DNA of 64,000 bases from Hymenobacter radiodurans (lineage in GTDB: Bacteria > Bacteroidota > Bacteroidia > Cytophagales > Hymenobacteraceae). The translations under genes and the position numbers were made by a program. This document shows, piece after piece, positions 387 to 63,981 of this stretch; positions within the stretch are counted from its first letter, which is position 1, and each line of letters begins with the position of its first letter. A model generated the notes under the pieces. It was not told where the DNA came from and made no database searches. It was given only the letters and a program-made list of their open reading frames with translations. The stretch spans positions 496,001 to 560,000 of the forward strand of contig NZ_CP037922.1 in assembly GCF_004355185.1 (NCBI RefSeq), written 5' to 3'.

Positions 387-1151
387 ATGTTCGATATTTC
401 TGTTTTCTCCGATCCTAATACCTGGGTCAGCCTGCTCACGCTTACCTTCATGGAGGTGGTGCTGGGCATTGATAACATCATCTTTATCTCCATCATCGTC
501 AATCGGTTGCCGAAGGACCAACAAGGGCGCGGACGCACCATAGGCCTGATGTTGGCGCTGCTGTTTCGCATCGGATTGCTGTTGAGCATCACCTGGATTG
601 TCAGCCTGAAGGAGCCCTTGTTTACAATCAATCTTCCCTTTCTGGCGGCTGACCACGGCGTATCGGGCCGCGACCTGATTTTGTTCGCTGGGGGGCTTTT
701 CCTGCTGGCTAAGAGCACCACCGAGATTCATACCAAGCTTCAGGGCGAAGAAGAAAGCCACGAAGCGGGCAATTACAGCAGCTTTGCCCGCGTCATTGTC
801 CAGATCATTCTCATCGACATTGTGTTCTCCTTCGACTCGATCCTGACGGCCGTGGGCTTGGTGGATAACGTACTAGTGATGATTCTGGCGGTTATCATCG
901 CTATGGGTATCATGCTGATTTTCGCCAAGATGATCGGCGACTTCGTAAATCAGAACCCAACGATAAAAATGCTGGCCCTGTCCTTCCTGATTATGATCGG
1001 TATTATGCTGGTGATGGAATCCTTTCACCAGGAAATTCCGAAGGGCTACGTCTACTTCGCCATGTTCTTCTCCCTGGGCGTGGAACTGCTGAATCTGCGC
1101 CTCCGCAAAAAGGTGCCACCAGTGGAGCTGCGCGATTCACGCTTCGATTAA
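387..1151 (+). CDS. TerC/Alx-family integral membrane protein
   Basis: A 254-residue polytopic membrane protein with about seven hydrophobic segments. The family signature near the N terminus, MEVVLGIDNIIFISII (about residues 21-36), and the second acidic membrane motif DIVFSFDSILTAVGL (about 147-161) identify TerC/Alx. Members are linked to metal-ion export, including manganese for Alx and MeeF-type proteins, and to tellurite resistance operons; no ter genes are nearby, so a housekeeping metal-homeostasis role is more likely (inference). The start at MFDISVFSDP matches the usual start of this family. A copy of the window-wide G6 motif lies inside at 688-700. A hairpin shared with the converging J-domain gene follows it. 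Confidence 0.9.
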   Translation: MFDISVFSDPNTWVSLLTLTFMEVVLGIDNIIFISIIVNRLPKDQQGRGRTIGLMLALLFRIGLLLSITWIVSLKEPLFTINLPFLAADHGVSGRDLILFAGGLFLLAKSTTEIHTKLQGEEESHEAGNYSSFARVIVQIILIDIVFSFDSILTAVGLVDNVLVMILAVIIAMGIMLIFAKMIGDFVNQNPTIKMLALSFLIMIGIMLVMESFHQEIPKGYVYFAMFFSLGVELLNLRLRKKVPPVELRDSRFD

Positions 1152-1182
1152 GACGCGATTTGAGCGTTTTATTTTTCCTGCA

Positions 1183-1226
1183 GTGCCCTAGCGATATGAT
1201 ACGTCAGAAGCTAGGGCACCGTGTTT
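1183..1226. terminator. Bidirectional terminator between converging genes
   Basis: A perfect 10-bp stem, GTGCCCTAGC (1183-1192) with GCTAGGGCAC (1210-1219), followed on the plus strand by GTGTTTTTAA. It can serve both the TerC gene and the converging J-domain gene. Confidence 0.75.
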
Positions 1227-2033: not shown

Positions 2034-2488
2034 TCCCCAGCCGCAGTTCCTTCAGCAAGTAGGGTAGCTAGGGCAGCCACATGGTCCTGCACCCGCCGAA
2101 TAGCCAGCTCCAACAGGCGGCGGTTCAGTTCTGCGCGGTGGGGGCGGTAAAAAGCCAACTCACTCTGCGTCAATAACCCAACCACCGTGCCCACCAGTAG
2201 GTAGCGCAGCTTCACATTGCGCGTGAGCAGCTCCGCCACCACCCGCTGCTGCTCCACTACCGCTGAGGTGAGAAACGGAATGTGGTGTTCCTGAATAAAA
2301 TCGGCCACCAGCAGCAGCAGCAACTCATTTTGTAGCTTCAGCACGGGCCGGAGCGTACGGTGCAGAAAGTCGCCCACGGTGGGGCCATCGGCGGTGGGGG
2401 GCAAAAAGGCCGTTTCAACCAGCGGGCGCGAACTAAGAATGGCAGCGTCGCGGTCGGCGGGAGTAAAAGCGGCAGAAGTCTGGCTCAT
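2030..2488 (-). CDS. Hypothetical protein coupled to the J-domain gene
   Basis: About 152 residues from the preferred start MSQTSAAFTPADRDAA; the frame stays open upstream to 2554. I do not recognise the family. The middle is helical and leucine-rich (LKLQNELLLLLVADFIQEHH) and is followed by a weakly hydrophobic stretch and an amphipathic C-terminal helix ending in TLLAEGTAAGE. There is no clear signal peptide. The four-base ATGA overlap with the J-domain gene downstream suggests that the two products act together. A T-tail copy of the G6 motif (2492-2507) sits directly upstream of the chosen start, in the place of a leader. Confidence 0.6.
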   Translation of the reverse strand: MSQTSAAFTPADRDAAILSSRPLVETAFLPPTADGPTVGDFLHRTLRPVLKLQNELLLLLVADFIQEHHIPFLTSAVVEQQRVVAELLTRNVKLRYLLVGTVVGLLTQSELAFYRPHRAELNRRLLELAIRRVQDHVAALATLLAEGTAAGE

Positions 2489-2575: not shown

Positions 2576-3055
2576 CTATTTGGCCGGCACGGCGCTCTGC
2601 TGCCAGCGGTCAGCTTTTATTAGTTTAATTAATTCTGCTTCTAAGCCTTTGAGAGCCGCCGGAGCGCCGTCATAATCCCGAATACGCTTGCTCTTACCTC
2701 CCTTCCAGTAGGTAATGTACTTCGTAGGATAGTCGAGCTTGGTAGAGGTGTAGCTGTCCTGCAAAGCAAAAAAACTAGCCGCGTCGAACTTGGCGATAAG
2801 CTGCTTCCGCTCGGCCGCCGTCAAGCGCCCCGCATACGTGCCTTGGCGGGGGGCATTTTCGCCGCCTTTATATTCCAAGCGGCCATCGGTGTACACCGTA
2901 ATCTGATCGACGGGGCAAGGACCCATGCAGGCGGTGCGCTCCAATTGCATGAGCTTTTCGGTGGCGGCCTGTACTGGTCGGCAAGCCACCAGGCAAGTAA
3001 CAGCTAACAATAAAAGCAGGCTGGGTAAAGCCCTAATACAAAATAGCTTTGTCAT
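2576..3055 (-). CDS. DUF6438-like lipoprotein
   Basis: A 159-residue protein starting at MTKLFCIRALPS; an in-frame start eight codons upstream is less likely because it would precede the signal peptide. The N terminus is a lipoprotein signal with a lipobox-like LVAC, so the mature Cys is probably lipidated. The mature part contains LERTACMGPCPVDQITVYTD followed by a short Gly-rich turn, the pattern I associate with DUF6438, where two cysteines lie in a CxGPCP motif. The function is unknown; the location is probably the periplasmic or outer leaflet of a membrane. It carries the G6 motif variant with an ATTTT tail at 2848-2858. Confidence 0.72.
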   Translation of the reverse strand: MTKLFCIRALPSLLLLLAVTCLVACRPVQAATEKLMQLERTACMGPCPVDQITVYTDGRLEYKGGENAPRQGTYAGRLTAAERKQLIAKFDAASFFALQDSYTSTKLDYPTKYITYWKGGKSKRIRDYDGAPAALKGLEAELIKLIKADRWQQSAVPAK

Positions 3056-5841: not shown

Positions 5842-5856
5842 AAAAAAGCCCCCCAG
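5842..5856 (-). repeat. Intergenic T-tail copy of the G6 motif
   Basis: AAAAAAGCCCCCCAG, read on the minus strand as CTGGGGGGCTTTTTT, lies between the terminator and the stop of trmH. It is a single copy without a partner arm, so it is not itself a hairpin. Confidence 0.7.
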
Positions 5857-5867: not shown

Positions 5868-6404
5868 CTAGTTGCCAAAACCCATCTTCCGCATGAAGTC
5901 CCAAAGTACCACGCCCGCCGCTACTGATACGTTCAAGGAGTGCTTGGTGCCGAATTGTGGAATCTCTACGGCCGCGTCGCAGAGGGCTAATACTTCGTCT
6001 TCCACTCCAAACACCTCATTGCCCATCACCAGCGCGTAGGGTTTCGTTGGATCAGGTTGGAAAGCACTGAGCGACTGGCTACTATCCGTTTGCTCCACGG
6101 CAATCACCACGTAGCCGGCGGCTTGCAGCTGGCGCACTACATCGGTGGTCTGGGGGGCAAATTCCCACGCTACCGACTCCGTGCTGCCTAAGGCCGTCTT
6201 GGTAATCTCGCGGTGCGGCGGGCGCCCTGTGATGCCGCAGAGCCAGATTTTCTCTACCGCAAATGCATCGGCGGTTCGGAAGGCGGCGCCCACATTATGT
6301 AGGCTGCGCACGTTATCGAGCACGAGGGTTAGGGGGATTTTTTGCGTATTTTTGAAGTCTGCCACCGTCAGTCGGTTCAGTTCTTCCATCGAAAGTTTGC
6401 GCAT
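5868..6404 (-). CDS. TrmH/SpoU-family RNA 2'-O-ribose methyltransferase
   Basis: A 178-residue SPOUT-class enzyme. All three SpoU motifs are visible: motif 1 NVRSLHNVGAAFRTADAF (about residues 31-48), with the catalytic Arg; motif 2 ALVMGNEVFGVEDE (about 126-139); and motif 3 EIPQFGTKHSLNVSVAAGV (about 148-166), which forms the knot and the SAM site. The protein has no N-terminal substrate-binding extension, so it resembles the short TrmH or TrmL-like group; whether it modifies tRNA or rRNA cannot be told from sequence. It starts at MRKLSMEEL, a start shared by Bacteroidota relatives. The minus-strand promoter element TACCTTTG (6409-6416) is only a few bases from the ATG. Confidence 0.92.
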   Translation of the reverse strand: MRKLSMEELNRLTVADFKNTQKIPLTLVLDNVRSLHNVGAAFRTADAFAVEKIWLCGITGRPPHREITKTALGSTESVAWEFAPQTTDVVRQLQAAGYVVIAVEQTDSSQSLSAFQPDPTKPYALVMGNEVFGVEDEVLALCDAAVEIPQFGTKHSLNVSVAAGVVLWDFMRKMGFGN

Positions 6405-6467: not shown

Positions 6468-9263
6468 TTGAAAACAAAAGTCAAAAAAGGCCCAGGTCCG
6501 CGCTCCGAAGCTTACGCCGCCGTGGCGCCTACTCTCGAAACGACGCCCCTCATGCGTCAGTATTACCAGCTAAAGCAGCAGTACCCCGGTGCGCTGCTCC
6601 TGTTTCGGGTAGGCGATTTTTACGAAACCTTCGGCGAGGACGCTGTCACCACGAGTCGTATCGTGGACATTGTGCTCACGAAGCGCGGTGCTGGCACCTC
6701 TTCGGAAGTGGCATTGGCGGGCTTTCCTCACCATTCCCTCGATACGTATCTGCCCAAACTGGTGCGTGCTGGGCAACGCGTGGCCATCTGCGACCAGCTC
6801 GAAGATCCCAAGCAAGCCAAGGGCCTGGTGAAGCGTGGCGTGACGGAGTTGGTAACGCCCGGCGTGTCCTTCAACGATAATGTGCTGGAGCGCAAGTCCA
6901 ACAACTACCTCTGTGCGGTGCATTTTGGCAAACAGGAAGCCGGCATTTCCTTCCTCGACATCAGCACCGGCGAGTTTCTGGTGGCGCAGGGCGACGTACC
7001 GTACTTAGGCAAGCTGCTCCAAAACTTTGGTCCGGCCGAAGTGCTTTTCTGCAAGAAAAGTCGTCAAGAGTTTGAGCAGCATTTCGGCCCCGACTTTTGC
7101 CACTACGCGCTTGATGAGTGGGTATTTGGCTTTGATTACGCCCACGATACACTCACGCGCCACTTTAAAACTACCTCGCTTAAAGGGTACGGCATCGATG
7201 GTCTGCGCGAGGGCATCACGGCGGCGGGCTGCATTCTGCACTATCTGGCCGAAACCAAGCACACCAATGTGGGCCACATTGCCGGCATTGGGCGACTTGA
7301 GGAGGACAAATACGTGTGGCTGGACCGCTTTACCGTGCGCAACCTGGAGCTGGTACAGCCCCAGCACTTGGGCGGTGTGCCCTTAATTGATATTCTGGAC
7401 CAAACAGTAACGCCGATGGGCGCCCGACTACTACGCAAGTGGGTAGTGTTGCCGCTGAAAGAAGCCGCCCAGATTCAGCGCCGGCTGGATACTGTAGAGG
7501 CTTTGTTGGCTGATACCGACCTTTTAGGAGAAATAACCCAAAACCTGCGGCAGATCAATGACTTAGAGCGCCTGATTTCGAAGGTGGCCGTGCGCCGAAT
7601 CAACCCGCGCGAACTCCTGCAATTGAGTCGGGCGTTGGAGGCCATTGGCCCCATTCGGACTGTGCTAGCCGGTTCAGGCATCCGCGCCTTACAGAAGCTA
7701 GCTGATCAGCTGAACGCCTGCGACACACTGCGAACAGATATTACGGCCAAAATTCGGCCCGACGCGCCTGTGCTTACCAACCAGGGAGGCGTGCTGAACG
7801 ACGGCATCGATAAGGAGTTGGACGAGCTGCGCAGTATTGCTTTTTCGGGCAAGGACTATCTGTTGCAGTTGCAGCAGCGTGAGCAGCAGAATACGGGTAT
7901 TTCTTCGCTGAAAGTAGCTTACAATAAGGTATTTGGCTATTACCTGGAAGTGTCGAATGCGCACAAGAACAAAGTGCCAACCACCTGGATTCGTAAGCAA
8001 ACGCTGGTAAACGCCGAGCGCTACATTACGGAGGAGCTAAAGACCTACGAAGAGAAAATTCTGCACGCTGAGGACCGCTTGTTCATCATCGAGCAGAATA
8101 TCTACAACGAGCTCGTGCAAGCTGCTGCCGACTATGTGCCGCAGATTCAGCAGAATGCCCGCGCCATTGGCGTGCTCGATTGCCTGGCCTCGTTTGCGGC
8201 CACCGCGCGCCAATACAACTATGTGAAGCCAACGGTGAATGATGGTGGCATTCTCGACATTCGCCAAGGTCGCCACCCGGTGATCGAGCGACAATTGCCC
8301 CCCGGTGAGGCTTACATTCCGAACGATATTTGTTTGGACCAGGATGACCAGCAGATTGTGGTCATTACGGGTCCTAATATGGCGGGTAAGTCGGCACTAT
8401 TGCGCCAGACGGCTCTTATTGTGCTGCTAGCTCAAATCGGCTCCTTCGTACCCGCTGATGCGGCCACTATTGGTGTCATTGACAAAATTTTCACCCGCGT
8501 AGGTGCTTCCGACAACCTCAGCAAGGGCGAAAGTACCTTTATGGTGGAGATGACTGAAACGGCCAGCATCCTGAACAACCTCTCCGACCGCAGCCTCGTG
8601 CTGATGGATGAAATTGGGCGCGGCACCAGCACGTACGACGGAATCAGCATTGCCTGGGCCATTGTGGAACACCTGCACAATAGCCCAAAAGCGCGGGCCA
8701 AAACACTGTTTGCTACGCACTACCATGAGCTAAACCAGCTCGCCGACGACTGCCCCCGCGTGCGCAATTACAACGTGGCCGTGAAGGAAGCCGATGGGCG
8801 CATTCTCTTTATGCGCAAGCTGGTGGCGGGTGGTTCGGAGCATAGCTTTGGTATTCACGTGGCACGCATGGCGGGTATGCCTACTTCGGTGGTACTGCGA
8901 GCCAACGAGATTATGCACCACTTGGAGCAGGAGCGGGCTCACGCCGGCGATGGCGAAGCAGATGCGCCCACTGAATTTGATGAGCTATTGGCAGGATTGG
9001 AGCCCGAGCAGCAAGGTGGTAAGGTGCTGCCGCTCAACGGCCATACGCACGAAAAAGCCCCCCAGCGCGGCCCACGGGCCCAGCCCGTGGCGGCCGTAGC
9101 TACGGCCCCGCGTCCGAGCCTACAGCTGAGTATGTTTGAGCCCGCCGACCCCGCCTTGGAGCGCGTACGCGAACTTATTCAGCAGCTTGATGTAAATACG
9201 CTTACGCCCATCGAAGCACTGCTGAAGCTGAATGAGCTGAAACTGGCGCTGGGGGGCAAATAA
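6468..9263 (+). CDS. mutS: DNA mismatch repair protein MutS
   Basis: About 931 residues from the TTG at 6468 (MKTKVKKGPG); the frame is open to 6342, but an upstream start would run through the trmH promoter and start. The mismatch-reading Phe-x-Glu lies in VGDFYETFGEDA (about residue 50). The ATPase domain has Walker A GPNMAGKSALL near residue 635 and Walker B LVLMDEIGRGTSTYDG, followed by FATHYHEL. MutS dimers recognise mismatches and hand over to MutL. The variable linker before the C-terminal dimerisation helices contains a T-tail G6 motif copy (9052-9065, encoding KAPQ), and a second, A-tail copy forms the last codons and the stop (GGG GGC AAA TAA). MutL is not in the window. Confidence 0.97.
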   Translation: MKTKVKKGPGPRSEAYAAVAPTLETTPLMRQYYQLKQQYPGALLLFRVGDFYETFGEDAVTTSRIVDIVLTKRGAGTSSEVALAGFPHHSLDTYLPKLVRAGQRVAICDQLEDPKQAKGLVKRGVTELVTPGVSFNDNVLERKSNNYLCAVHFGKQEAGISFLDISTGEFLVAQGDVPYLGKLLQNFGPAEVLFCKKSRQEFEQHFGPDFCHYALDEWVFGFDYAHDTLTRHFKTTSLKGYGIDGLREGITAAGCILHYLAETKHTNVGHIAGIGRLEEDKYVWLDRFTVRNLELVQPQHLGGVPLIDILDQTVTPMGARLLRKWVVLPLKEAAQIQRRLDTVEALLADTDLLGEITQNLRQINDLERLISKVAVRRINPRELLQLSRALEAIGPIRTVLAGSGIRALQKLADQLNACDTLRTDITAKIRPDAPVLTNQGGVLNDGIDKELDELRSIAFSGKDYLLQLQQREQQNTGISSLKVAYNKVFGYYLEVSNAHKNKVPTTWIRKQTLVNAERYITEELKTYEEKILHAEDRLFIIEQNIYNELVQAAADYVPQIQQNARAIGVLDCLASFAATARQYNYVKPTVNDGGILDIRQGRHPVIERQLPPGEAYIPNDICLDQDDQQIVVITGPNMAGKSALLRQTALIVLLAQIGSFVPADAATIGVIDKIFTRVGASDNLSKGESTFMVEMTETASILNNLSDRSLVLMDEIGRGTSTYDGISIAWAIVEHLHNSPKARAKTLFATHYHELNQLADDCPRVRNYNVAVKEADGRILFMRKLVAGGSEHSFGIHVARMAGMPTSVVLRANEIMHHLEQERAHAGDGEADAPTEFDELLAGLEPEQQGGKVLPLNGHTHEKAPQRGPRAQPVAAVATAPRPSLQLSMFEPADPALERVRELIQQLDVNTLTPIEALLKLNELKLALGGK

Positions 9264-9674: not shown

Positions 9675-10160
9675 ATGCGAAGAAAGATATCGGACCAGGA
9701 GTTTAGCGAGGCTGTAGCCCAAAGTTTATCAATAGCACAAGTAATTGTGCAGTTAGGGCTGGTGCCGGCGGGGGGCAATTATAAGACGGTGCAAGCGCGT
9801 ATCGATAAGCTAGCCCTTGATAGAAGCCATTTTACTGGTAAGGGCTGGAATGTGGGCGACCGGTATCAACCATTTGCAAAATGCTTTTCGTGGGAGAATG
9901 TTCTCGTCCAAAATTCTAAGTACACATCGAGCAATCGACTGAAATATCGGTTGTTAAATGCTGGTCTTAAGCTTCATCAATGCGAGCGGTGTAGGATGAG
10001 TGAGTGGCTAAAACAACCCATTCCACTGGAACTCCATCACGTGAATGGCGTAAATAATGATCATAGAATTGAGAATTTACAGTTATTGTGCCCAAATTGC
10101 CACGCTCAAACTCCAACATACCGGGGTAAGAACCAAGCAAGAGCCGGAGTGGTGGAATAG
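9675..10160 (+). CDS. HNH-type endonuclease with N-terminal DNA-binding region
   Basis: A 161-residue protein. The C-terminal half has the HNH/zinc pattern: CERC (CxxC), then LELHHVNGVNNDHRIENLQL with the catalytic His pair, Asn and His, then CPNCH (second CxxC). The N-terminal half (QSLSIAQVIVQLGLVPAGGN followed by ARIDKL and SHFTGKGW) resembles a small helix-turn-helix domain often seen before such HNH domains. The substrate is unknown; small HNH proteins include homing, phage and repair nucleases. The gene lies between two tRNA genes, follows a perfect inverted repeat, has its own promoter, and its last 18 bases overlap the 5' end of tRNA-Leu. A G6 motif copy (9770-9779) encodes GGN near the N-terminal part. 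No partner gene is adjacent. Confidence 0.85.
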   Translation: MRRKISDQEFSEAVAQSLSIAQVIVQLGLVPAGGNYKTVQARIDKLALDRSHFTGKGWNVGDRYQPFAKCFSWENVLVQNSKYTSSNRLKYRLLNAGLKLHQCERCRMSEWLKQPIPLELHHVNGVNNDHRIENLQLLCPNCHAQTPTYRGKNQARAGVVE

Positions 10161-10369: not shown

Positions 10370-13300
10370 ATGACCGCAGATTCTGTTGACTATCAAGCCT
10401 TATTCGAAACGCTGCCAGGTAGCTATCTGGCTTGTAGTCCTGAATTGGTTATTGTAGCGGTTTCGGCTGGGCTGGAAAGAGCAACCGGAAAAGCAAAGGA
10501 GCAGCTTCTGGGCAAACCATTAAAAGAGGTTTTGCCCGAGCAAGGAAGCGCGCGGCAAAGCCTGTATGCGTCCTTACGTCATGTGCTGGACCATCACACC
10601 TCCCATGAGCAGACGCTTACTGTAAACCCTGTGGTGGCAGTTTCGATTAATGCATCAGGTGGTGACATACGCAGTTGGCACAGCCGGGCGTGGCCGGTGG
10701 TAGGCGCGGGGGACAAAATACGCTACGTTCTGTATAGTGTGGAAGCTGGGCCGGCACCTGCCTCGCACGAAAACACCAGCCAAACGATCCACTGGAATAG
10801 CGCCGACACGGAAACGGTGCAGAAGCATCAGCAGCCAGTAGTATCCGACCAGCAGCTACAGCAAATCTTACGGCAGGTGCCAGCTCAGATAGCCACCCTT
10901 TTAGGCCCTGGTCATGTGTACGGCTTTATTAATGAGCAAGCCCAACAGCTGTTGGGTGAGGCAGCAACGCTCGGTACGCCAGCTGCCATAGCTCGCCCTT
11001 CGCTGGTTGATTCTGGCTACATCCGCTTGGTAGACCAGGTATACCAGACGGGAATACCGTTTGAGCTGAGTGAAATGCCCACCGAGCAGCCTGCTTCGGC
11101 AACCAACTCCCCCGGCGAAACTTTGTATTTCGACGGAGTGCTGCGTCCCCTAACCGACGACAAGGGACAAACGCAAGGTGTATTGGTATTTGGAATAGAT
11201 GTAACGGAGCGGGTGCGAGCCAAGCAGCGCGCGGCTGAATTGATGGAAGAAGTACGCTTTCAGGACCAACAATTTCATCAGGTAATGGAAGCCCTGCCCC
11301 AAATGGCCTGGGTTTCACGGCCTGATGGGGGCGTAACTTATTACAACAAGCGTTGGTACGACTTTACAGGGAGCAATTTTGAGGAGATGCAGGACTGGGG
11401 CTGGGAAGGATTTGTCCACCCCGCCGACCTTGCAACCACCGTGGAGCGCTGGCAAACGGCCGTGAGCCAAGGAACAGTGTTTGAAACCGAGCACCGCTGG
11501 CGTGATCGGCAAGGAGGCTACCGTTGGTTTTTGGCCCGCGGTGAAGCTATTCGCGCGGCTAATGGCAGCATATTGCGATGGGTAGGCACCAATACCGATA
11601 TTGATGAGCATAAGCGCTTTCAGCAACAGCTAGCGGCAAAGGACGAGCAGCTCCACCAGATTCTGCGCCAAAGTCCGGCCCTCATTGCTACGCTCGAAGG
11701 CGCTGATCATCGCTATGCATTCACCAATCCCGGGTACGACCTATTGGTAGGCTACCGGGCCAAATTGGGCAAACCGGTGGCTGAATGCTTGCCGGAGCTG
11801 GTAGAGCAAGGTATTATCGATAAACTTGATAGCGTTTACCAAACGGGTGAATCGGTGGCTAATCTCCAAACCTACCTTGAATTGGTAGATCCCGTGAGGG
11901 GTGAGCGCCGACCGACTTATCTTGATATTACCTACCAGGCTCTACGCGATGCTGGGGGGCAAATTCAGGGAGTACTGGCCTTTATCGTGGAGGTGACCGA
12001 GCAAGTGCGCTCCCGCCAACGGGCGGAGGCTTTAATGGAGGAAGTGCAGGCTGGCTCCTTGCAGCTGATAGAACAGCGCGAAACGTTTTATCAGCTTTTC
12101 CAGCAAACTCCGGCCAGTATTGCCATTCTGCGCGGCCCAGAGCACCGTTTCGAGTACTTCAATCCTAGGTTTCAAGAGCTGTTTCCGGATCGGGAACTGA
12201 TGGGGCAAGCCATGATTGAGGCGCTGCCTGAAACCGTAGAGCAGGGCTTTATGGAACTGCTTGATCGGGTGTACCACACGGGCGAAACTTTTTTGGGAAT
12301 GAGTTGCCGTTTCAGGTATATGAGCGGTCTGGTAATGGCTCCAGATCCATCTATTTCAACTTCACCTATCAGGCTTTCCGGGAAAATGGAGTTACTGTGG
12401 GCGTTGCCGTATTTGCCTACGATGTAACGGAGCAGGTAAAAGCACGCCGGCAGACCCAGGTGTTGCAGGCCAAAATGAGTCGGCGCGACCGGGAGCTGCG
12501 GATGATGGCCGAGAGCCTGCCGCTTATCACCTTCGTGACCGAAACCGACGGACGGCTAAGCTACATCAGCCCGCAGTCGTTCGCCTATACGGGTATGAGT
12601 GCTGACGCGGCTTTGCAGAGCAGTTGGGCTGATATCGTCCACCCCAACGATCTGGAAGCGCTGCAAAAAGAAATACAAGTCGCCACCAACGAGTTGCGGC
12701 CGTGGCGGTGCGAGTTTCGCATGCTCCGTCACGATGGGCAGTACCGCTGGTATCTGGGGCAGGGCGTTCCCGACCTGGACGTGACCACCGGGCTGCCGCG
12801 GCGCTGGTATGGCTCGAGCACCGACATTCACGACCTGCGCGACCTGCAGGACCAACTGTTGATTAAGGATCAGCAACTGCAGCAGATTCTGAGTCAGGTG
12901 CCGGCGTACATTGCCACCGTAACGGGCCCCGAACACCGCTATGCCTTTGTCAATCCGGGCTATAACGTTCTCATGGGCGGGCGCATAAAACTTGGCCGAC
13001 GAGTGGCCGATTTACTCCCGGAGCTAGTGGAGCAAGGGTTCGTAGCGCTGTTGGACGAGGTGTATACTTCGAAAAAAACATACATAGGGCGCGAAACACC
13101 CATCACCTTGTTTGATCCTGGAACTGGCGGCAACCGGGAATACTACCTCGACTTTGTGTACCAACCGTTGTACGATGCGAAAGGGCAGACTCAGGGTATT
13201 CTCGGCTTTGGAATCGATGTAACGGAGCAGGTGCGGGCCCGCCAACAGACCACGGCGCTGCAAGCGGAGCTACGGGGCCGCGATGAGCAGTTCCGCTTCC

Positions 13301-23512: not shown

Positions 23513-23520
23513 CCGGGGGG

Positions 23521-38681: not shown

Positions 38682-38724
38682 TTCAAAAAAGCCCCCAGCG
38701 CTAAGTCTGGGGGGCTTTTTTGAA
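38682..38724 (-). terminator. Terminator after the lytic transglycosylase gene, made of two G6 motif arms
   Basis: TTCAAAAAAGCCCCCAG and CTGGGGGGCTTTTTTGAA pair around a short loop. The left arm has five Cs (38692-38696), the right six Gs (38709-38714), so the stem has a one-base bulge unless a C was lost. It lies directly downstream of the minus-strand gene ending at 38740. Confidence 0.9.
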
Positions 38725-50566: not shown

Positions 50567-50582
50567 CCGGGGGGCAAATTTC
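50567..50582 (+). repeat. Intergenic A-tail copy of the G6 motif
   Basis: CCGGGGGGCAAATTTC lies between divergent genes, in a noncoding stretch. Confidence 0.7.
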
Positions 50583-50659: not shown

Positions 50660-53600
50660 ATGCTGTATTCTACTGTTCGCTTACTTCTATCTACCGTTCT
50701 GCTTGCAGCTTCTGTCGTAGTGCCAGTGCAGGCCAAGCCTGCCGCATCGGCCCCAACTACCAAATCATTAGAGTTTGTGGAAAATCGGGGTCAGTGGGAT
50801 GCCCGCGCGCACTATATGGCCGAGCTCCCTGGCGGGCGACTGTTCCTCGAAAAAACAGGTTTCACCTACGCCTTCGCTGATCCTCAGGCCTTACGCCACC
50901 ACCAGGAGCACACAACCTCTGGCAGCGGACCCGTCTCGGAAAAACTGCGGGCCCACGCCTACCGCGTCACCTTTGAAGGCGGCAGTTCAGGCACCGTTCT
51001 TACTCCCGATGAGCCAACGGCAGGGTTTCGAAATTACTTTCTGGGTAATGATGCCAAGCATTGGGCCGCCAAGGTGCGGGGGTTTCGGCAGGTTAACTAT
51101 GCCAATGTGTATCCGCGCATCAGCGCCAAAGTGTACGAGAATGCGGGGGGCAATTTGGAGTACGATTTTACCGTGCAGCCAGGCGGCAAGCCATCCAACA
51201 TTCGCCTGCGCTATACTGGCGCCGAGCGTCTGAGCCTGGAGAACGGTCAGCTAGTAGTGCAAACTAGTGTGGGCATCGTTACGGAGCAAATGCCGAAAGC
51301 TTGGCAGGAAATAAATGGGCAGCGGGTACCGGTGACGTGTGCCTTTGTGCTGGAGAAAAACGTAGTCAGCTTCCGATTGGGCACTTATGACTCCCGCCAA
51401 CCTCTCATCATCGACCCCACGGTCATTTTTTCCTCCTTCACCGGCTCCACTGCTGATAACTGGGGCTACACAGCTACTTATGACGCGCAAGGCAACATGT
51501 ACTCCGGCGGTATCGTGTTCGGGCTGGGCTATCCGGCGTCTCCGGGAGCCTTTAGCCAAAGCTTTGGGGGCGGAGTTGATGTCGCTATTATCAAATACAA
51601 CACAAGTGCGCGCGGCAGTGCCGCCCGCTTGTATGCCACGTACCTGGGGGGCAATTTGATTGACGCTCCGCATAGCCTGGTGGTGAACAGTCAGAACGAG
51701 CTGATTATTCTGGGCTCCACGGGTTCCAGCAACTTCCCCGTTTCCCGTACCACGTTCGACGATTCCTTCAACGGCGGGCCCCGGGTTGATCCACAGGCCG
51801 GCGGACCAGGAATGAATTATGATGCGGGAGCCGACATATTTTTGGCCAAGCTCAATAGCACCGGCAGCACGCTGGTAGCTTCCACTTTTATCGGCGGAAG
51901 CGGCACAGACGGTATTATTCAAGGTAATACAGGACTGACCCAAAACTATGGCGACGAATTTCGGGGTGATGTAATTACCGATACGGAAGGAAACGTGTAC
52001 ATCGCCTCTACCACTACGAGCACGAACTTTCCCGCCCGCAATAGTTTTCGCAATGCTCCCTTGGGGGCAATTCTGATGCGGTTGTCTTGAAGCTGTCCGC
52101 CGATTTTCGCACGGTGGTTTGGGCAAGCTACTTGGGAGGTTCCGGAGCCGATGGCGCCTATTCTATCCAGATAGACGACGACCGTAACGTATATGTAAGC
52201 GGCGGCACCACCAGTACAAACTTAGCGGGTACTAGCGGTCGATATCAGCCCCAGCTGCGCGGTGGTGTCGATGGGTTTGTGGCGCGCATCAGCAGCGATG
52301 GCTTGGCTTTAACGCACGCTACCTACGTGGGCACTCCCGAAACGGACCAAACGTACTTCCTGCAATTAGACGCTGTTGCCAACATCTATATATTAGGTCA
52401 GACGCGGGGTAGTTTTCCCCGCACGCCTGGTTTGTACGGTGTCGATAACGGCCGTCAGTTTGTGCAGAAGCTTGACAATACGCTCACCACGAGTTTGTAT
52501 TCGACCACCTTTGGCAGCGGTCGTGCCGCCCCCGACTTATCGCTGACAGCTTTCTTGGTTGATGATTGCGAGCGTATCTACGTGAGTGGTTGGGGAGGTA
52601 GTACTAATTCCAACGGCGGTAATACGCAAGGCTTGCCTACTACCGCCGATGCCTCGCAGCGCACCACCGACGGCTCCGACTTCTACATCGTCCAGTTTAC
52701 GCCCGGTATGAAGGCCATAGAATACGCCACTTTTTTTGGTCAGAATGGCGGCCGGGGCGAACACGTCGACGGCGGCACTTCTCGCTTTGATAAGCGTGGC
52801 GCCATCTACCAAGCCGTCTGCGGGGGCTGCGGAGGCAGTTCTGGCTTTCCCGTGCCACCGGGGGCCAATTATTATAGCACCACCAATAATGCAGGCAACT
52901 GCAATAACGCCGCGTTCAAAATTGACTTTGCGGCCCAGGTTGTAAATCCGGGGCCCAATCGTACGGTGTGCTACAACGCCGGGCCGCAACGCTTGGGCGG
53001 CACTCCAACTGGTGGCATCTGGAGCGGCCCCGGCGTAACAGCCATTGCTGGCGGAGGCTATCAGTTTACTCCCAGTGCTTCCTTAGTGGGCCGCAATACA
53101 CTAACTTATACCGTGAACACAACGGGGGTATGCTTAAGCACTAAGCTGCTGCGCATGACGGTAACCCCCGAAGCGGTTATCACATTTGCCCCCCCGGCCA
53201 TCGTGTGTAGCAATACTACTGCTGTGCCGCTCACCGCTACACCCGCCGGTGGCACCTTCAGCGGGCGCGGCGTCACGGGCAGTACGTTCAACCCAAGCGC
53301 GGCCGGTGTAGGCACCCATGTTCTAACTTACACGCTGGCCGATACGCTCGGCTGCGGCACCCTATCCCGCACCATTGTAGTGGATGCCCAGCCCACCGTA
53401 TCTGCTGGCCGTGATACCACGCTTTGCTCTGATCAGACAAGGGCGTTCCGTCTTTTGCGCGCCTCACCAGCCGGGGGCGTCTGGAGTGGTACCGGGGTGA
53501 CGGCCGATGGAATGTTCACCCCACCTAACACTAATAATCTGGGGGGCATTTTTAGCATCGACTATACTGTAACTGTAGGGGTTTGCAAAATCGTCTCTAC

Positions 53601-54123
53601 TCGTAAAGTAATCATCGCGCCCACTTCATCCACCAACGTAAGTCTGAATACGCCTGAGTGCCAGGCGGCCCCCGAGTACACAGGCTTAGCACCCTTCACA
53701 ATGCAATTTTCGCCCATATTGGCCGGTGGTAGCTTCAGCTGGGATTTCGGCGACGGTACGACTTCTAATGAGGAATCGCCTAGCCATGTATATGAAAACC
53801 CCGGTACGTACCCCGTTCAGCTTACGGCCCGGTACGCGGGGTGCACTGTCGTCACGCAGTTTGCGGCCGTACGAGTAGGGAAGGTGCAAATGCCGAATAT
53901 TTTTACGCCCAACAACGACAACCTAAACGATACATTTGCCCCCCGCATTAGCTGCAAGAACGCCCACCTGACGGTATTTACCCGCTGGGGTAGCAAAGTG
54001 TACGAAGCGGACAATTATCAGAATGACTGGGGCGGCGACAAGCTACCTGATGGTGTGTACTATTATCTGCTGCGCGACACGGAAGGCAAATCAGCGAAAG
54101 GCTGGGTAGAGATAAAACGCTAG
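50660..54123 (+). CDS. SBBP/PKD-repeat secreted protein with type B (gliding-type) sorting domain; one frame break
   Basis: About 1154 residues if one G is restored at 52063-52067; then APLGGNSDAVVLKLSADFRT joins both halves. The signal peptide starts MLYSTVRLLLSTVLLAASVV. SBBP (beta-propeller) repeats follow, with forms such as IKYNTSARGSAARLYATYLG and LKLSADFRTVVWASYLGGSG, then Ig-like repeats with GGxxSGxGV turns (GGIWSGPGVT, GGTFSGRGVT), a PKD domain SFSWDFGDGTTSNEESPSHV, and a C-terminal type B sorting domain beginning VQMPNIFTPNNDNLNDTF. It is probably exported by the type IX system and attached to the cell surface. Several G6 copies lie in the repeats. Confidence 0.86.
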
Positions 54124-56308: not shown

Positions 56309-59300
56309 ATGGCGGAAGTAGCAACTAAACGGCTGAATCAGGCGGCCAAAGACCTGAACGTTGGATTGTCCACTATCGTGGATTTTCTGGCGGGGAAAGG
56401 GCACCAGATCGAGAATAAGCCAACGACCAAGCTAACGGCCGAGCAGGTTTCCCTGCTCGACAAGGCTTTTGAGTCGTCGGCTCAGGATAAGATCGAAGCG
56501 GCCAAGCTCAGCCAGGCCAAGCGCCAGAGCGAGATGGAGGCTTCTGCCCATGCCCGCCCCGAACCCGTGGCTCCTAAGGCCAATGGTACCTCTGCTGCGC
56601 CCGCCCCAGTCGAGGCACCTGTAAAGCCAGCCGAAGAAACCCGGCCAACCGCGCCGGCTCCTGCACCTGTGGTTGCAGAAGCCGCGCCTGCCCCGACTCC
56701 GGTTGCGACTCCCGCTCCAGCGCCGTTAGTCGACGCCCCAAAGGTGCCTGGCTTGAAGGTGTTAGGAAAAATAGAGCTAGATGCCAAAGGACGGCCTGTG
56801 CCTCCGCGGCCAGCCGATGCTCCTACGCCTCCAACTCCTGCTCCTGCTGAGGCAGTAGTTGCGCCGGCCCCGGCTGTAGTTGCTACACCGGTTCCAACTC
56901 CAGCGCCAGAACCAACGCCCGCACCTGCGGCACCAAAAGAAGTTGTTGCGCCTGCACCTGAACCAGTTCCTGTAGCCGAAGTAAAACCTGCGCCATCTCC
57001 AGCACCAGCTACGCCAGTCGAAGCTCCAGTTGCTGCAGTACCAATGGCTGCGACTCCGGTACCTGTTACTCCAGATGAGCCAGTGGTACCCACTGTTGAA
57101 GACAGTACAATCGTAGCTAAAGCCGATCAGCTGAAAGGTCTGACAGTTCTAGGCAAGATTGAATTGCCTATGGATGCTTCACGCCGTGGTGGTCGGGGCG
57201 CCCGTCCTGTTGCGTCGTCAGATGTCCGCAAGAGTGGTATAAATCAAGATAATAAGAAAAAGCGCCAGCGCATTGCTATGCCCGGCTCACCTGCTACTCC
57301 TGGCCAAGGAGGTCAGGGCGGTCAAGGTGGACAGCAAGGCGGTGGTTACCAAGGTACCCGTCCGAATACGCCAGGCCAGCCGCGCCCAGCTGGTGGCCAA
57401 GGACAGGGTGGTCCTCGTCCCGGTGGTCCCGGTCCGCGTCCAGGTCAGCCAGGACAAAATCAAAATGCCCCCCGGCCTGCTCCCGTTGCTAATAACCCTG
57501 AGCAGAACGACAAGCAGATTCAGGAGCAGATCAAGGCTACGCTGGCGAAGCTCAGCGGTGGCCGTGGTGGCAACCAGAATAACCGCGCGAAGTATCGCCG
57601 TGATAAGCGTGCAGGGGTTGCGGAAGACCGCGAAGCCCAACGCGCTCAGAACGAGCTGGATGCTAAAACGCTGAAAGTAACCGAGTTTATTTCGGCTAAT
57701 GACCTTGCGTCCCTCATGGACGTGTCGGTAAACGAAGTAATCAAAGTATGCCTGAGCATGGGCATGTTCGTTTCCATTAACCAGCGTCTCGACGCGGAAG
57801 CCATTACCGTCATTGCTGATGAGTTCGGCTATGATGTGGAATTCCTGTCGGCTGAGGAAGAGGAAACGGATGTTACCGTTGAAGACAACGAAGAGGACTT
57901 AGTACCTCGTGCGCCGATTGTTACCATCATGGGTCACGTTGACCACGGTAAGACGTCGCTGCTGGACTATATCCGAAATGCAACTGTAGCCAAAGGCGAA
58001 GCAGGTGGTATTACTCAGCACATTGGTGCTTATGATGTAATGACTGCCTCTAATAAGCGTGTTACCTTCTTGGATACACCGGGTCACGAAGCCTTTACGG
58101 CCATGCGTGCCCGTGGCGCCAAGATCACGGACATTGCCATTATCGTAATTGCGGCCGACGATTCCGTGATGCCACAAACACGAGAGGCTATCAACCACGC
58201 GCAAGCTGCTGGGGTGCCGATCGTTATTGCAATGAACAAGATTGACAAGCCAGGCGCTAACTCCGAGAAAATTCGGGAGGAGCTATCGGCCATGAATATC
58301 TTGGTGGAAGAGTGGGGTGGAAAATACCAGTCACAGGAAGTATCAGCTAAGTCGGGTCTCGGCGTAGAAGATTTGCTGGAGAAGGTATTGCTGGAAGCCG
58401 AACTATTGGAGCTGAAAGCCAATCCTGACCGCAATGCAGTTGGTACTGTGATTGAAGCTATGCTGGACAAAGGCCGTGGCTACGTAACCACAGTGCTGGT
58501 GCAAACTGGTACGCTGCACGTAGGCGACGTTGTGTTGGCTGGCCCGCACTACGGGCGCGTAAAGGCTATGACCGATCACCGCGGTAAGAAAATGAAGTCG
58601 GCTGGTCCGGCCACGCCGGTGCAGGTACTCGGTCTGACCGGTGCTCCGCAGGCTGGTGATAAGATTCAGGTGATGGAGACCGAGCGCGAAGCTCGTGAAC
58701 TTGCTACCCAGCGTCAGCAGCTCTCGCGTGAGCAGAGCATGCGCACCAAGAAGCACATTACCCTCGACGAGATTGGTCGCCGTTTGGCTATCGGTTCGTT
58801 TAAGGAGCTGAACGTAATTGTAAAAGGTGACGTGGACGGTTCGGTAGAAGCACTGTCGGATTCGCTGTTGAAGCTCTCTACTCCTGAGGTGAAGGTGAAT
58901 ATCCTTGCTAAAGGTGTGGGAGCCATTTCCGAATCGGATGTACTATTGGCTTCAGCCTCCGACGCCATCATCATTGGCTTCCAGGTTCGTCCTTCGCAAA
59001 GTGCCCGCAAATTGGCCGAGCAAGAGCAGATCGATATCCGTCTCTACTCGATTATCTACAATGCTATCAATGAGGTGAAAGATGCCATGGAAGGCATGTT
59101 GGCCCCATCGGTGCAGGAGATAGTGGTAGCCAACGCCGAGGTTCGTCAGGTATTCAACATTACCAAAGTCGGCTCTATTGCCGGCTGTATGGTGACGGAG
59201 GGTACCTTCACTCGCAGAACCCGAGTACGCGTCGTACGCGACGGTATCGTGGTATATGCAGGTGAAATTCAGGACCTCAAGCGTTACAAAGACGATGTGT

Positions 59301-59439: not shown

Positions 59440-59475
59440 CAAAAAGCCCCCCAACATACCGTTGGGGGCTTTTTG
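59440..59475 (+). terminator. Terminator of infB, made of two G6 motif arms
   Basis: CAAAAAGCCCCCCAAC and GTTGGGGGCTTTTTG pair around ATACC. The left has six Cs (59447-59452), the right five Gs (59464-59468). Confidence 0.92.
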
Positions 59476-59579: not shown

Positions 59580-60296
59580 ATGAGAGCTTTTTCGCTTCTA
59601 CTGTGCCTTATGCTCTGGCTGAGCTTGACATCCCTAACCTTTGCCCAAACCGCTAGGCGGCCCTCAACTAAGCCAGCAACCAATAAACCGGCTTCAAAGC
59701 CAGTGCCATCAACTGCGGAAACCTCCGCTGATGACGAAATTCCGCCCCTTGATACTCGCTTCCCGGAGTTATTTACCCCCGAGAGTACGCCCACCTTTCG
59801 CAAAGGCTATTCTATTGTAAACTTGGGACTTGGGCTGCTGAGTCCGAATAATGGCTATGATTTATTTGGTAGCCTAAAGAGTTCACCGGCAATCACGCTG
59901 TCTTATGAGCGGGGAGTGGTAGAGGGCATCGGGCCGGGCACTATTGGTCTGGGGGGCATTATTGGCTACAAAGGCTACCGCTACGACTTTCCCAACACCG
60001 ACGCAGACGCCACCTGGACCGACATCGTCTTAATGGGGCGTGGTACTTATCACTACAATTTCACCACCAACCCTCAACTTGATACGTATGGCGGGATTAG
60101 CTTAGGCGTACGAGCTAACTTCTATAAAAACGAGGTTTCCCCTGATCGTGACCGGTACACTGGCGACGGCTTGCACTTGGCATATGGACTATTTGCTGGA
60201 GCGCGCTACTATCTTACCGAGCGGTTTGGGGCTTTTGGAGAAGTAGGCTACGATATGTCTTACCTGAAGCTGGGGCTCACTTATCGATTTCAGTAA
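59580..60296 (+). CDS. Small outer-membrane beta-barrel protein
   Basis: About 238 residues from MRAFSLLLCLMLWLSLTSLT, a signal peptide. A Pro/Thr/Lys-rich segment follows (RRPSTKPATNKPASKPVPST), then a barrel of alternating strands: SIVNLGLGLLSPNNGYDLFG, GGIIGYKGYRYDF, and the C-terminal YLKLGLTYRFQ ending in Phe-x, typical of outer-membrane barrels. I cannot name the family. The barrel has about eight strands, like small OmpA-type or opacity-type proteins. The G6 motif copy at 59949-59963 encodes LGGIIG. It converges with a small basic secreted protein gene over a strong bidirectional terminator. Confidence 0.75.
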   Translation: MRAFSLLLCLMLWLSLTSLTFAQTARRPSTKPATNKPASKPVPSTAETSADDEIPPLDTRFPELFTPESTPTFRKGYSIVNLGLGLLSPNNGYDLFGSLKSSPAITLSYERGVVEGIGPGTIGLGGIIGYKGYRYDFPNTDADATWTDIVLMGRGTYHYNFTTNPQLDTYGGISLGVRANFYKNEVSPDRDRYTGDGLHLAYGLFAGARYYLTERFGAFGEVGYDMSYLKLGLTYRFQ

Positions 60297-60314: not shown

Positions 60315-60353
60315 ATAAAAAAGCCCCCCAGATTTACTCTGGGGGGCTTTTTT
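60315..60353. terminator. Bidirectional terminator, made of two G6 motif arms
   Basis: ATAAAAAAGCCCCCCAGA and TCTGGGGGGCTTTTTTAT pair around a 5-base loop. Both runs have six bases, so the stem is perfect. It lies between converging genes. Confidence 0.95.
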
Positions 60354-61000: not shown

Positions 61001-61057
61001 GGTACGAAAAAGCCCCCAGCATAAGATTGTCTCTGCACTGGGGGGCTTTTTCGTACC
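61001..61057. terminator. Terminator of mscL, made of two G6 motif arms
   Basis: GGTACGAAAAAGCCCCCAG (61001-61019) and CTGGGGGGCTTTTTCGTACC (61038-61057) form a long stem. The left has five Cs (61013-61017), the right six Gs (61040-61045). Confidence 0.93.
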
Positions 61058-61660: not shown

Positions 61661-62449
61661 ATGACTACTTTCGACAACCTACTTCTCGACCTCGATGTCG
61701 CCTCGGGTATTCTGACCATTACCCTAAACAGGCCCACCAAACTCAACGCTTTGAATAGTGCCACCATCAGCGATATTCATGGCGCGATGCAGCAGGCTCT
61801 TGATGATGAGCAGGTGCGCGGAATCATTCTGACGGGTAGTGGCGAAAAGGCATTTGTGGCAGGCGCTGATATTGCTGAGTTGGCGGGGCTAAATGAGATT
61901 AGTGGTCGTCGCTTCGCTGAGCAGGGGCAAGATGCTTTTGCTCTGATTGAGGACAGTACGAAGCCCGTTATTGCCGCCGTCAATGGCTTTGCTTTGGGTG
62001 GCGGTGCTGAGCTAGCTATGGCCTGCCACCTGCGGGTTGCGAGCGAGAATGCTCGTTTTGGCCAGCCTGAGGTGAACCTAGGCTTAATTCCGGGCTACGG
62101 CGGCACGCAACGCCTTGCCCAGTTGGTAGGTAAAGGAAAGGCCCTGGAAATGATGCTCACCGGCGACCCTATTAAAGCTGATGAAGCCCTGCGCTTTGGT
62201 TTGGTAAATCATGTGGTGCCGCAGGCCGAGCTATTGACTTTTTGCCAGCAACTACTCACGCGTATCCTCAGCAAAGCTCCTTTAGCGGTAGGCTTGGTCA
62301 TCGACTGCGTGAATGCTTTTTACGACTCCGAGCGCCACGGCTATCAGACAGAGGCCAACTCCTTCAGCCGGTGCTGCGGCTCCGACGACTTCCGTGAGGG
62401 CACTAGCGCTTTCCTCGATAAGCGCCCAGCCGCTTTTACGGGAAATTAA
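61661..62449 (+). CDS. Enoyl-CoA hydratase/isomerase-family protein
   Basis: A 262-residue crotonase-fold protein starting MTTFDNLLLDLDVASGILTI. The CoA-binding and oxyanion-hole regions read GEKAFVAGADIAEL and NGFALGGGAELAMACHLRVA, and the two catalytic Glu residues of hydratases are present, in GGGAELAMAC and FGQPEVNLGLIPGYGGTQRL. It probably hydrates 2-enoyl-CoA in fatty-acid or butyrate-type pathways. The C terminus ends in GTSAFLDKRPAAFTGN, as in family members. It is followed after 11 bases by the flippase gene, and the two may share a transcript although their functions differ. Confidence 0.94.
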   Translation: MTTFDNLLLDLDVASGILTITLNRPTKLNALNSATISDIHGAMQQALDDEQVRGIILTGSGEKAFVAGADIAELAGLNEISGRRFAEQGQDAFALIEDSTKPVIAAVNGFALGGGAELAMACHLRVASENARFGQPEVNLGLIPGYGGTQRLAQLVGKGKALEMMLTGDPIKADEALRFGLVNHVVPQAELLTFCQQLLTRILSKAPLAVGLVIDCVNAFYDSERHGYQTEANSFSRCCGSDDFREGTSAFLDKRPAAFTGN

Positions 62450-62460
62450 GTTAAGCTAGC

Positions 62461-63981
62461 ATGAGCGTCGCCAAAAAGCTGGCCAGCCAAACGGCTGTGT
62501 ACGGCCTGAGCAGCATATTGGGGCGGGCGCTTACGTTCGCTCTGGTGCCGCTGTACACCGCTCGATTTGTACCCGGTGAGTACGGTATTGTTACGGATCT
62601 GTATGCCTATGTGGCTTTCCTGAATATCGTATTCACCTACGGTATGGAAACGGCGTATTTCCGTTTCGCCAATCGTCCGGGCACCGACCGCCGCCACTTG
62701 TATAGCCAAGTGATGAGCATGCTACTTGTTAGTAGCCTGTTGCTCAGCGGATTTCTGGTGCTACTATCAGGGCCGTTAGCCGACGCGCTCCGCTACCCCG
62801 ACCGCGCCACTTATATCGTGTGGCTTGCCTTGGTGCTGGGCCTCGATGCAATTGTGGCTGTGCCATTTGCCCGTCTGCGGCTGGAAAACAAAGCCAAAAA
62901 ATTTGCTGCCATTCGCTTCACTAATACCTTGGTGAATGTGGGCTTGTCGCTGTTTTTTATCGTTCTCTGCCGCGATGTGTACGAAGGGCGCATGCTTCCT
63001 GAGCTACGACCTTTGGTGGAGCGCATTTACAATCCTGAGCTGGGAGTAGGGTATATCTTTTTAATCAACTTGATAGCCAACGCCTTGTACGTTCCCCTGC
63101 TCTGGCGTGAGCTGCTAGACTTCCGCTTCCGCCTGAATCTGGCGCCGTTGCGGCCCATGCTGCAATATGCCTACCCGCTTATGCTGATGGGTTTGGCTGG
63201 TATGGTAAACGAGGTAATTGACCGAATTCTGCTCAAATACTGGCTCCCCGAAGGCTTTTATCCTGGCCAAAGCAACCTGACCGCCGTGGGGATTTATGGC
63301 GCTTGCTATAAGCTGGCCATCTTTATGTCATTGGTTATTCAAGCTTTCCGATACGCAGCCGAGCCTTTCTTTTTTTCTCAGGCTGCGGATAAGAATTCAC
63401 CGGCTACGTTTGCTGTTGTTCTAAAGTGGTTTACGCTCTGCTGCGCCGTTATTTTCGTGGTTATCAGCGTCTTTATCGAAGACTTTGGCTTATTACTGCG
63501 CAGTCCTGAGTACCGAACGGGCTTAGCAGTAGTGCCAGTTTTGCTGCTGGCGAACTTGTTTCTGGGAGTGTATTATAACTTATCCGTCTGGTTTAAGCTC
63601 ACCGATAGAACCTACTTCGGTACCTATATCAGCGTTGGTGGGGCCATACTCACTGTTGTGCTCAACCTGCTCCTCATTCCGATACTGGGTTATATGGGCA
63701 GTGCCCTTGCCACGCTGGCTTGCTACTTTATGATGGCCGCTATCTGCTGGTGGCTGGGCAACCGCTACTTTCCGATTCCTTATCCGGTGCTCCGTATCAG
63801 CGTGTGGCTACTAGTGGCTGTTGGGTTGGTTGCCGCTACGTGGTTTATCAACATTGAAAACTACTGGCTACGACACGCTTTTCATTTGTTGGTGTGCCTA
63901 AGCTTTGTGGGGGGCATTTTCTTAGTAGAGCGCGCCGACCTGACGCGTAGTAAGCCCCGACCCCAGGTTAAGCAGGCGTAG
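62461..63981 (+). CDS. Wzx-like oligosaccharide flippase
   Basis: A 506-residue membrane protein with about 12-14 helices. The N terminus MSVAKKLASQTAVYGLSSIL followed by GRALTFALVPLYTARFVPGE is typical of the polysaccharide/PST-type flippase group of the MOP superfamily. It probably moves lipid-linked glycan across the inner membrane. It is distinct from the flippase at 16.4 kb, so this genome has at least two such proteins. No glycosyltransferase follows within the window, which ends 19 bases later. An ATTTT-tail G6 motif (63907-63921) is near the 3' end. Confidence 0.9.
   Translation: MSVAKKLASQTAVYGLSSILGRALTFALVPLYTARFVPGEYGIVTDLYAYVAFLNIVFTYGMETAYFRFANRPGTDRRHLYSQVMSMLLVSSLLLSGFLVLLSGPLADALRYPDRATYIVWLALVLGLDAIVAVPFARLRLENKAKKFAAIRFTNTLVNVGLSLFFIVLCRDVYEGRMLPELRPLVERIYNPELGVGYIFLINLIANALYVPLLWRELLDFRFRLNLAPLRPMLQYAYPLMLMGLAGMVNEVIDRILLKYWLPEGFYPGQSNLTAVGIYGACYKLAIFMSLVIQAFRYAAEPFFFSQAADKNSPATFAVVLKWFTLCCAVIFVVISVFIEDFGLLLRSPEYRTGLAVVPVLLLANLFLGVYYNLSVWFKLTDRTYFGTYISVGGAILTVVLNLLLIPILGYMGSALATLACYFMMAAICWWLGNRYFPIPYPVLRISVWLLVAVGLVAATWFINIENYWLRHAFHLLVCLSFVGGIFLVERADLTRSKPRPQVKQA

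Follow-up and report, generated by a model that had tools for sequence, protein, structure and literature searches.

A short G-run word with an A-tract tail, iterated thousands of times in four Hymenobacter species, as a possible mark of self DNA

The 64,000 nt stretch analyzed here (positions 496001–560000 of contig C2 of the Hymenobacter radiodurans genome, G000; hereafter the window) contains 53 copies of the word GGGGGGCWWW (W, A or T), which occurs in excess in this genome and in three other species, out of 120 Hymenobacter genomes compared. The word is kept at silent positions and, judging from its pattern of bases, is very probably read by a protein that binds duplex DNA. The interpretation that we prefer, although we give it somewhat less than an even chance, is that it is a protein recognition site marking the cell's own chromosome, gained once and since maintained, most likely for recognition of self DNA in uptake or recombination. 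Few lineages are known to carry words iterated throughout the genome, and the origin of such words is disputed; because the excess is limited to 4 out of 120 Hymenobacter genomes, the branch on which the word was gained can be pinpointed, and its reader may be sought through gene content.

The original prediction had been made from the letters of the window, and its counts held up well. It claimed about fifty copies per 64 kb, on both strands, in genes of unrelated function and between genes; the 53 matches (32 on the + strand and 21 on the − strand, the first at 690 and the last at 63909–63918) agree with this and place the word among iterated words of the kind of HIP1, Chi and the DNA uptake sequences (DUS). 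One or two copies had been expected by chance, and 100 dinucleotide shuffles gave a mean of 1.56 and a largest value of 5, which rules out G-run or composition bias as an explanation for 53. Isolated G-runs in the window (59 of six G, 56 of five and two of seven) are in line with the claim that the excess is not a mere G-run bias, and GGGGGGC is indeed rare without its A/T tail (6 of the 59 window occurrences lack WWW). In the complete genome (4.92 Mb, two contigs) there are 3168 copies, 1564 forward and 1604 reverse, and 60 of the reversed word used as a control; the proposed density of one copy per 1.2 kb is thus valid for the window, but the genome as a whole is sparser, with one per 1.55 kb. 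The excess decreases with rising mismatch load (494, 12.5, 2.7, 1.3 and 0.97-fold), and no such gradient of excess was seen in the outgroups.

The comparison with the genomes of relatives showed that the excess is sharply confined: the word occurs 2618, 3336 and 3708 times in G010, G102 and G119, respectively, and 14–104 times in the other 116 Hymenobacter genomes, similar in magnitude to their reversed controls. Since 116 of the 120 genomes lack it and three other species have it, we read this distribution as a clade-specific gain and not as an artifact. The three sister species are also the nearest relatives of our genome according to one protein, encoded by the open reading frame (ORF) at 54903–56186, which we take to be nusA from its place before infB: their sequences are 99–100% identical to ours and the next ones no more than 95% (a match was obtained in 119 of the 120 genomes). 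DNA identity is 84.5–90.6% among the four enriched species and 73–74% to two outgroups, over 19.8 and 18.5 kb of alignable sequence; the best 14 named loci by infB are all from Hymenobacter, although our own record may be missing from these matches. The 12-base form of the word occurs 447 times in our genome; among 395 Bacteroidota sampled, a set without the three sisters, no other genome has more than five, and the word is therefore no Bacteroidota-wide feature. The four enriched assemblies comprise 2, 5, 20 and about 120 contigs. No other iterated word of like strength was found in 80 kb each of the outgroups G068 and G060, the strongest 10-mer, in G060, occurring 9 times versus 0.22 expected. 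Separately, the 10-mer GTCCCCTCTT appeared 24 times, with 0.13 expected, in 15 pooled named Hymenobacter loci (L009–L022 and L043). Neither this word nor any iterated word in Hymenobacter is named in the titles or abstract beginnings of the open-access literature matches listed.

The anatomy of the word was derived from a 444 kb sample of the own chromosome, consisting of the window and 19 sampled 20-kb stretches (about 9% of the genome outside the window read). Across its 342 GGGGGGC sites there is a T at −1 in 75% and a C at −2 in 53%, followed by A or T at +7 to +12 and little beyond, with no consensus outside about −3 to +12. A mobile short repeat of the REP or MITE type was discarded, because no sequence is shared past the word and the differences between sisters are mostly substitutions. 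The predicted A/T tail needs to be qualified: W does follow the core, but the tail is not any combination of A and T, being mostly an A-tract without TpA. Among 295 four-base W tails, 268 are TTTT, AAAT, AAAA, AATT or ATTT, and 27 contain TpA; TpA-free tails make up 58/60, 40/45 and 51/55 in the three sisters, and 41–56% in other contexts ending in GC (2132/4497 after GC and 122/261 after [ACT]GGGC). The A/T segment adjoins the core directly and can be all A or all T; CTGGGGGGCAAATTT is a form with intact G-run and TpA-free tail. Since A/T runs without TpA have a narrow minor groove, the tail looks like a shape readout of duplex DNA. The length of the G-run also matters: the five-G form, TGGGGGC plus A-tract, is likewise in excess (92 versus 2.5 expected), the four-G form TGGGGC plus A-tract is at background (10 versus 9.55), and the seven-G form TGGGGGGGC plus A-tract was not found (0 versus 0.17), yet two window copies sit in seven-G runs. 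The sample holds 125 five-G sites, and 48 of them belong to intergenic hairpins.

The window is collinear with the corresponding regions of G119, G010 and G102, and the copies are largely maintained among these close relatives, with identical 10-mers at orthologous places for 42/53, 34/53 and 32/52 in the three sisters; the values for other S7W3 words were 27.9, 20.7 and 24.9%. Inside copies, fourfold-degenerate third positions agree in 93.9, 97.8 and 94.6% of cases (n = 98, 90 and 92), and elsewhere in 65.2, 60.0 and 63.5%, or 70–73% where the window base is G or C. The flanks of the copies are less conserved than the rest. The combination of a constant G-run and C with an A-tract shape, present in all frames and both orientations and kept at silent positions, points to a duplex-binding protein. 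A copy was present in at least one species at 83 places, 17 of which were dropped for missing alignment; counting five or six G as presence, the remaining 66 places have a copy in four species (35), three (22), two (5) or one (4). These shared places indicate that most copies predate the splits and that turnover is slow. Ten of the 22 three-species places lack the copy solely in G102, the most distant sister; there it could have been acquired by the other three. At 19 places where the sisters disagree, most of the differences are substitutions, with small gaps at a few. At the window copies at 16655 and 26403, and at one G102 copy (L128, joined position 37571), several changes are clustered within about 15 bases and the flanks are better conserved; such clusters may be due to selection, conversion or chance.

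With respect to their origin, 160 kb of outgroup sequence contain two one-step precursors (8-mer with exact tail) and 42 two-step ones; given this scarcity of one-step precursors, it is likely that each of the thousands of copies took more than one substitution. The residues encoded by coding copies match those of outgroups in 50% of cases, compared to 61% for their flanks and 70% for all residues (12 alignable copies; 17 outgroup sequences searched, 2–16 per copy, matches below 40% identity dropped), so that copies either sit at variable positions of the proteins or imposed residue changes.

Of the 315 copies in the 444 kb sample, 239 are within predicted genes (simple longest-ORF calls), 71 are intergenic and five are at gene edges and were counted as outside. 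Those in genes run with (135) or against (104) the coding strand and occupy all six frames; density is 0.61/kb inside genes and 1.43/kb outside. The tail is TTTT in 45 of the 71 intergenic copies. Many of the 76 copies outside genes or at their edges form arms in terminator-like hairpins; such hairpins, AAAAGCCCCC-N3-18-GGGGGCTTTT, number 308, 316, 208 and 278 in the four enriched genomes and 1–8 in 12 relatives. With the origin set at dnaA (G000:C2:959088), a provisional placement given the weak GC skew, and the terminus half-way, 150 copies are leading and 165 lagging (p = 0.43), and two other terminus placements changed this split by no more than one copy. A check for strand bias about the origin, which had been suggested, therefore revealed none, and a replication-oriented signal was rejected. 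The option of a role in chromosome segregation is likewise disfavored: KOPS, which are also G-rich, iterated and short, point to the terminus, but the Hymenobacter word is not oriented toward it.

The 190 kb contig C1 has 18 listed copies, a density of 0.95 per 10 kb (6.66 for C2), the completeness of this list being deduced from its order. Eleven of the 18 lie within about 24 kb (G000:C1:58017–82052), as if this segment were chromosome-derived or older in the clade. Phages were discarded as carriers, since the stretches from two viral scans (5 and 12) contain one or two copies each and none is enriched.

All 53 pattern matches in the window, on both strands and of ten bases each, are as follows (coordinates, strand, copy):

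690..699, +, GGGGGGCTTT, kept in all three sisters
2396..2405, +, GGGGGGCAAA
2496..2505, −, GGGGGGCTTT
2848..2857, +, GGGGGGCATT
5845..5854, −, GGGGGGCTTT
6152..6161, +, GGGGGGCAAA
8294..8303, −, GGGGGGCAAT
9054..9063, −, GGGGGGCTTT
9251..9260, +, GGGGGGCAAA, last codons of ORF 6342–9263
9770..9779, +, GGGGGGCAAT
11954..11963, +, GGGGGGCAAA
13491..13500, +, GGGGGGCAAA
13980..13989, +, GGGGGGCAAA
14668..14677, +, GGGGGGCATA, in a seven-G run, TpA in tail; among sisters a six-G copy only in G010
15728..15737, −, GGGGGGCAAA
16655..16664, −, GGGGGGCTTT
17752..17761, −, GGGGGGCAAA
18330..18339, +, GGGGGGCAAA
18624..18633, −, GGGGGGCAAA
21747..21756, +, GGGGGGCAAA, 18 bases identical across all four species
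22624..22633, −, GGGGGGCTTT
23515..23524, +, GGGGGGCTAT
26403..26412, +, GGGGGGCTTT
26590..26599, −, GGGGGGCAAA
26733..26742, −, GGGGGGCAAA
27167..27176, −, GGGGGGCTTT
29581..29590, +, GGGGGGCTTT, antisense within the sprA-like gene
31424..31433, +, GGGGGGCAAA, antisense within the sprA-like gene
34622..34631, −, GGGGGGCAAA
35264..35273, +, GGGGGGCAAT
38709..38718, +, GGGGGGCTTT, hairpin arm, partner five-G copy at 38687 (−)
38964..38973, +, GGGGGGCTTT
40570..40579, +, GGGGGGCTTT
42285..42294, +, GGGGGGCAAT
43010..43019, +, GGGGGGCTTT
45112..45121, −, GGGGGGCAAA
47056..47065, +, GGGGGGCAAA
49289..49298, −, GGGGGGCTTT
49962..49971, −, GGGGGGCTTT
50569..50578, +, GGGGGGCAAA
51145..51154, +, GGGGGGCAAT, gap-free versus both outgroups
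51646..51655, +, GGGGGGCAAT, gap-free versus both outgroups
53185..53194, −, GGGGGGCAAA, in a seven-G run
53541..53550, +, GGGGGGCATT, gap-free versus both outgroups
53935..53944, −, GGGGGGCAAA
54784..54793, +, GGGGGGCAAA, upstream of ORF 54903–56186 (putative nusA)
57464..57473, −, GGGGGGCATT, antisense in infB; same 10-mer already in outgroup G060
59443..59452, −, GGGGGGCTTT, hairpin arm, partner five-G copy at 59464 (+), downstream of infB
59951..59960, +, GGGGGGCATT
60320..60329, −, GGGGGGCTTT, left arm of a terminator-like inverted pair
60341..60350, +, GGGGGGCTTT, right arm of the inverted pair begun at 60320
61040..61049, +, GGGGGGCTTT, hairpin arm, partner five-G copy at 61008 (−)
63909..63918, +, GGGGGGCATT

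Among known iterated words, the best match to this anatomy appears to be with those for uptake or self-recognition, and most of all with the uptake signal sequence (USS) of the Pasteurellaceae. The latter also has a short strict core followed 3′ by a segment of As and then Ts, its copies were made by substitution and not by insertion, and 65% of them are genic in Haemophilus influenzae (all in PMC1626085), compared to 76% (239/315) here. The USS differs in that its core is unrelated and in that the Hymenobacter word has no second AT segment. The DUS of the Neisseriaceae occurs, like this word, in thousands of copies per genome (2245–3603 in four genomes cited in PMC3630211) and, according to PMC3630211, has clade-specific dialects and inverted pairs at terminators, to which the hairpins described above would correspond; on the other hand, PMC1626085 gives the DUS no flanking motif. 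Uptake sequences are also described as having a like mismatch gradient (PMC1939737). We favor uptake because of these likenesses, namely the core with its As and then Ts, the possible origin by substitution, the terminator pairs and the mismatch gradient. As with USS and DUS, there are thousands of strict copies on both strands in one clade, together with a graded excess of near-matches that the outgroups lack.

We thus propose that (C)T-GGGGGGC-AnTm would be a double-stranded protein site marking the own chromosome. Its reader would contact the bases of the G-run and the C and, as the TpA-free rule suggests, would sense the A-tract by its narrow minor groove. This specificity would have arisen in the common ancestor of the four species; thousands of genic and intergenic copies would then have been made by substitutions, as the clade restriction and the mostly gap-free alignments suggest, and, given the observed constraint, would since have been held by selection or by biased replacement. 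The most likely use would be recognition of self DNA in uptake and recombination, like USS and DUS, the DNA perhaps entering through ComEC by a pilus-independent competence route of Bacteroidota. Stated in its most specific form, as an undescribed Bacteroidota self-DNA tag of about 13 bases, read by base and shape, spread about 3000-fold and serving pilus-independent uptake or as a self/non-self label, the proposal is marginally more tentative still. If it is an uptake tag, no other is known to us from Bacteroidota, and none that functions without type IV pili. The sparse copies on C1 count in favor of such a mark.

The receptor of DUS is a pilus protein, uptake through USS or DUS involving a type IV pilus-type machine with a minor-pilin receptor, and the candidate machinery for a similar role in Hymenobacter is incomplete. 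ComEC was found above cut-off in 16 of 16 genomes; the type II/IV secretion ATPase family PF00437, the engine of pilus-type uptake, was above cut-off in none of the 16, a difference from both USS and DUS, with no match at all in the four enriched genomes and weak matches below cut-off in three outgroups, so that the known engine is missing. In Riemerella, also Bacteroidota, transformation needs ComEC, DprA, ComF, RecA and unknown proteins, one of them a predicted outer-membrane barrel, and the excerpt of PMC8459023 names no type IV pilus gene among these essentials; together with the ubiquity of ComEC, this makes a pilus-free route conceivable. A comparison of the 19 ORFs of one comEC stretch from G119 with 20-kb stretches of nine other genomes found no clade-specific receptor beside comEC. 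Three G119 ORFs (3239–4087, 4173–5021 and 17769–18236) had no match in six outgroup stretches, but were rejected as competence receptors because they resemble a short-chain dehydrogenase, a YgjP-like metallopeptidase and a DUF2141 protein. Besides the missing ATPase and receptor, several other results weigh against self-DNA recognition. Competence in any Hymenobacter was not found among the literature matches listed, judged by title; the second AT segment, which in the USS lies about one helical turn further along, is absent (no more than 0.062 bit of information between +13 and +34); single-species places are few (4/66), although uptake, if still active as a driving force, would be expected to keep generating copies. 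In addition, one of two control cores is mildly in excess (4.9, 2.5 and 2.9-fold at mismatch loads 0–2; the other not at all), and, out of 53 window copies, the alignment to outgroups rests on 9–12, being gap-free for 7/9 versus G068 and 6/9 versus G060.

The main rival is a role in chromosome architecture, which is unlikely overall but survives best: a nucleoid-associated or condensin-loading protein of the clade would bind every 1–2 kb and fold or space the nucleoid, with weak selection on each copy. Coverage is even, with 4.5–9 copies per 10 kb in all 20 sampled stretches, window included, and spacing is slightly more regular than random (mean gap 1339 bases, coefficient of variation 0.88; 30 gaps below 200 bp versus 41 expected). 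Both would fit this role, as would the lack of strand bias, the mixed base and A-tract readout and the scarcity of single-species copies. No such protein was found, however, the frequent terminator-like hairpin arms are not demanded by it, and no domain-scale pattern was seen in the 444 kb sample. A nucleoid site, if true, would point to a new architecture protein.

A Chi-like site for AddAB, at which the word would halt resection and start recombination in the own DNA, is considerably less probable. Chi words are likewise short, found throughout the genome and in many cases rich in G, CTGGGGGG is similar to the E. coli word GCTGGTGG, and 10 out of 10 genomes encode an AddB-type protein with a PDDEXK_1 domain. 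But E. coli Chi is leading-strand biased and is read in unwound single strands, whereas the Hymenobacter word has no such bias, is about 13 bases long and follows a TpA-free duplex rule that single-strand reading leaves unexplained; the missing bias and the duplex rule are our reasons for considering Chi less likely. Besides, copies are denser between genes than in them. The G119 AddB-type protein is 79–82% identical to those of four near outgroups and 73–74% to two further ones, so that a replaced AddB was rejected, and RecC is absent from 120 of 120 genomes, which discards a clade-specific RecBCD. The AddB-type protein is open over 796–797 residues of the locus in eight genomes, and in pieces in different frames in G000 (L188) and G010 (L195), probably due to indel or assembly errors.

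Slightly more improbable is a neutral mutational or repair drive, by which the copies would be functionless by-products. Such a model, with methylase-guided mismatch repair, exists for the cyanobacterial HIP1, which is also one short word at high frequency across the genomes of a lineage and of debated function (PMC4390886). The limitation of the excess to one small clade, and the several places where sisters differ by a cluster of substitutions, are consistent with it. Nevertheless, HIP1 is palindromic and tied to methylases, and the Hymenobacter word is not palindromic; moreover, the fourfold-degenerate sites in copies are far more conserved than elsewhere and single-species copies are few.

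An artifact of G-runs in sequencing or assembly has a negligible probability: although G010 and, in places, our own genome seem to undercall G-runs, an undercall removes G and adds none, and the four assemblies concur on the copies and on their tails.

Three of the ten five-G sites in the window are six-G in all three sisters, and part of the genic five-G excess may correspond to undercalls. In 80 kb of G010 (L119–L122) there are 26 five-G forms, whereas the other two sisters have 9 and 12 over equal lengths and the window has 10; nine of the 26 in G010 are six-G in all three others, and the surplus is probably a systematic homopolymer undercall. The sprA-like gene of the window (28064–35495, −; SprA_N matches) is split over several frames, whereas in G119 and G102 a single frame runs without a stop for about 2480 codons. 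The word copy at 32323, with five G in the window and six in the sisters, contains one of the one-base differences, and the frame splits are probably assembly undercalls of G-runs. Lastly, two tRNA genes (9447–9519 and 10143–10225, both +) are the only Rfam matches in the window at the gathering threshold.

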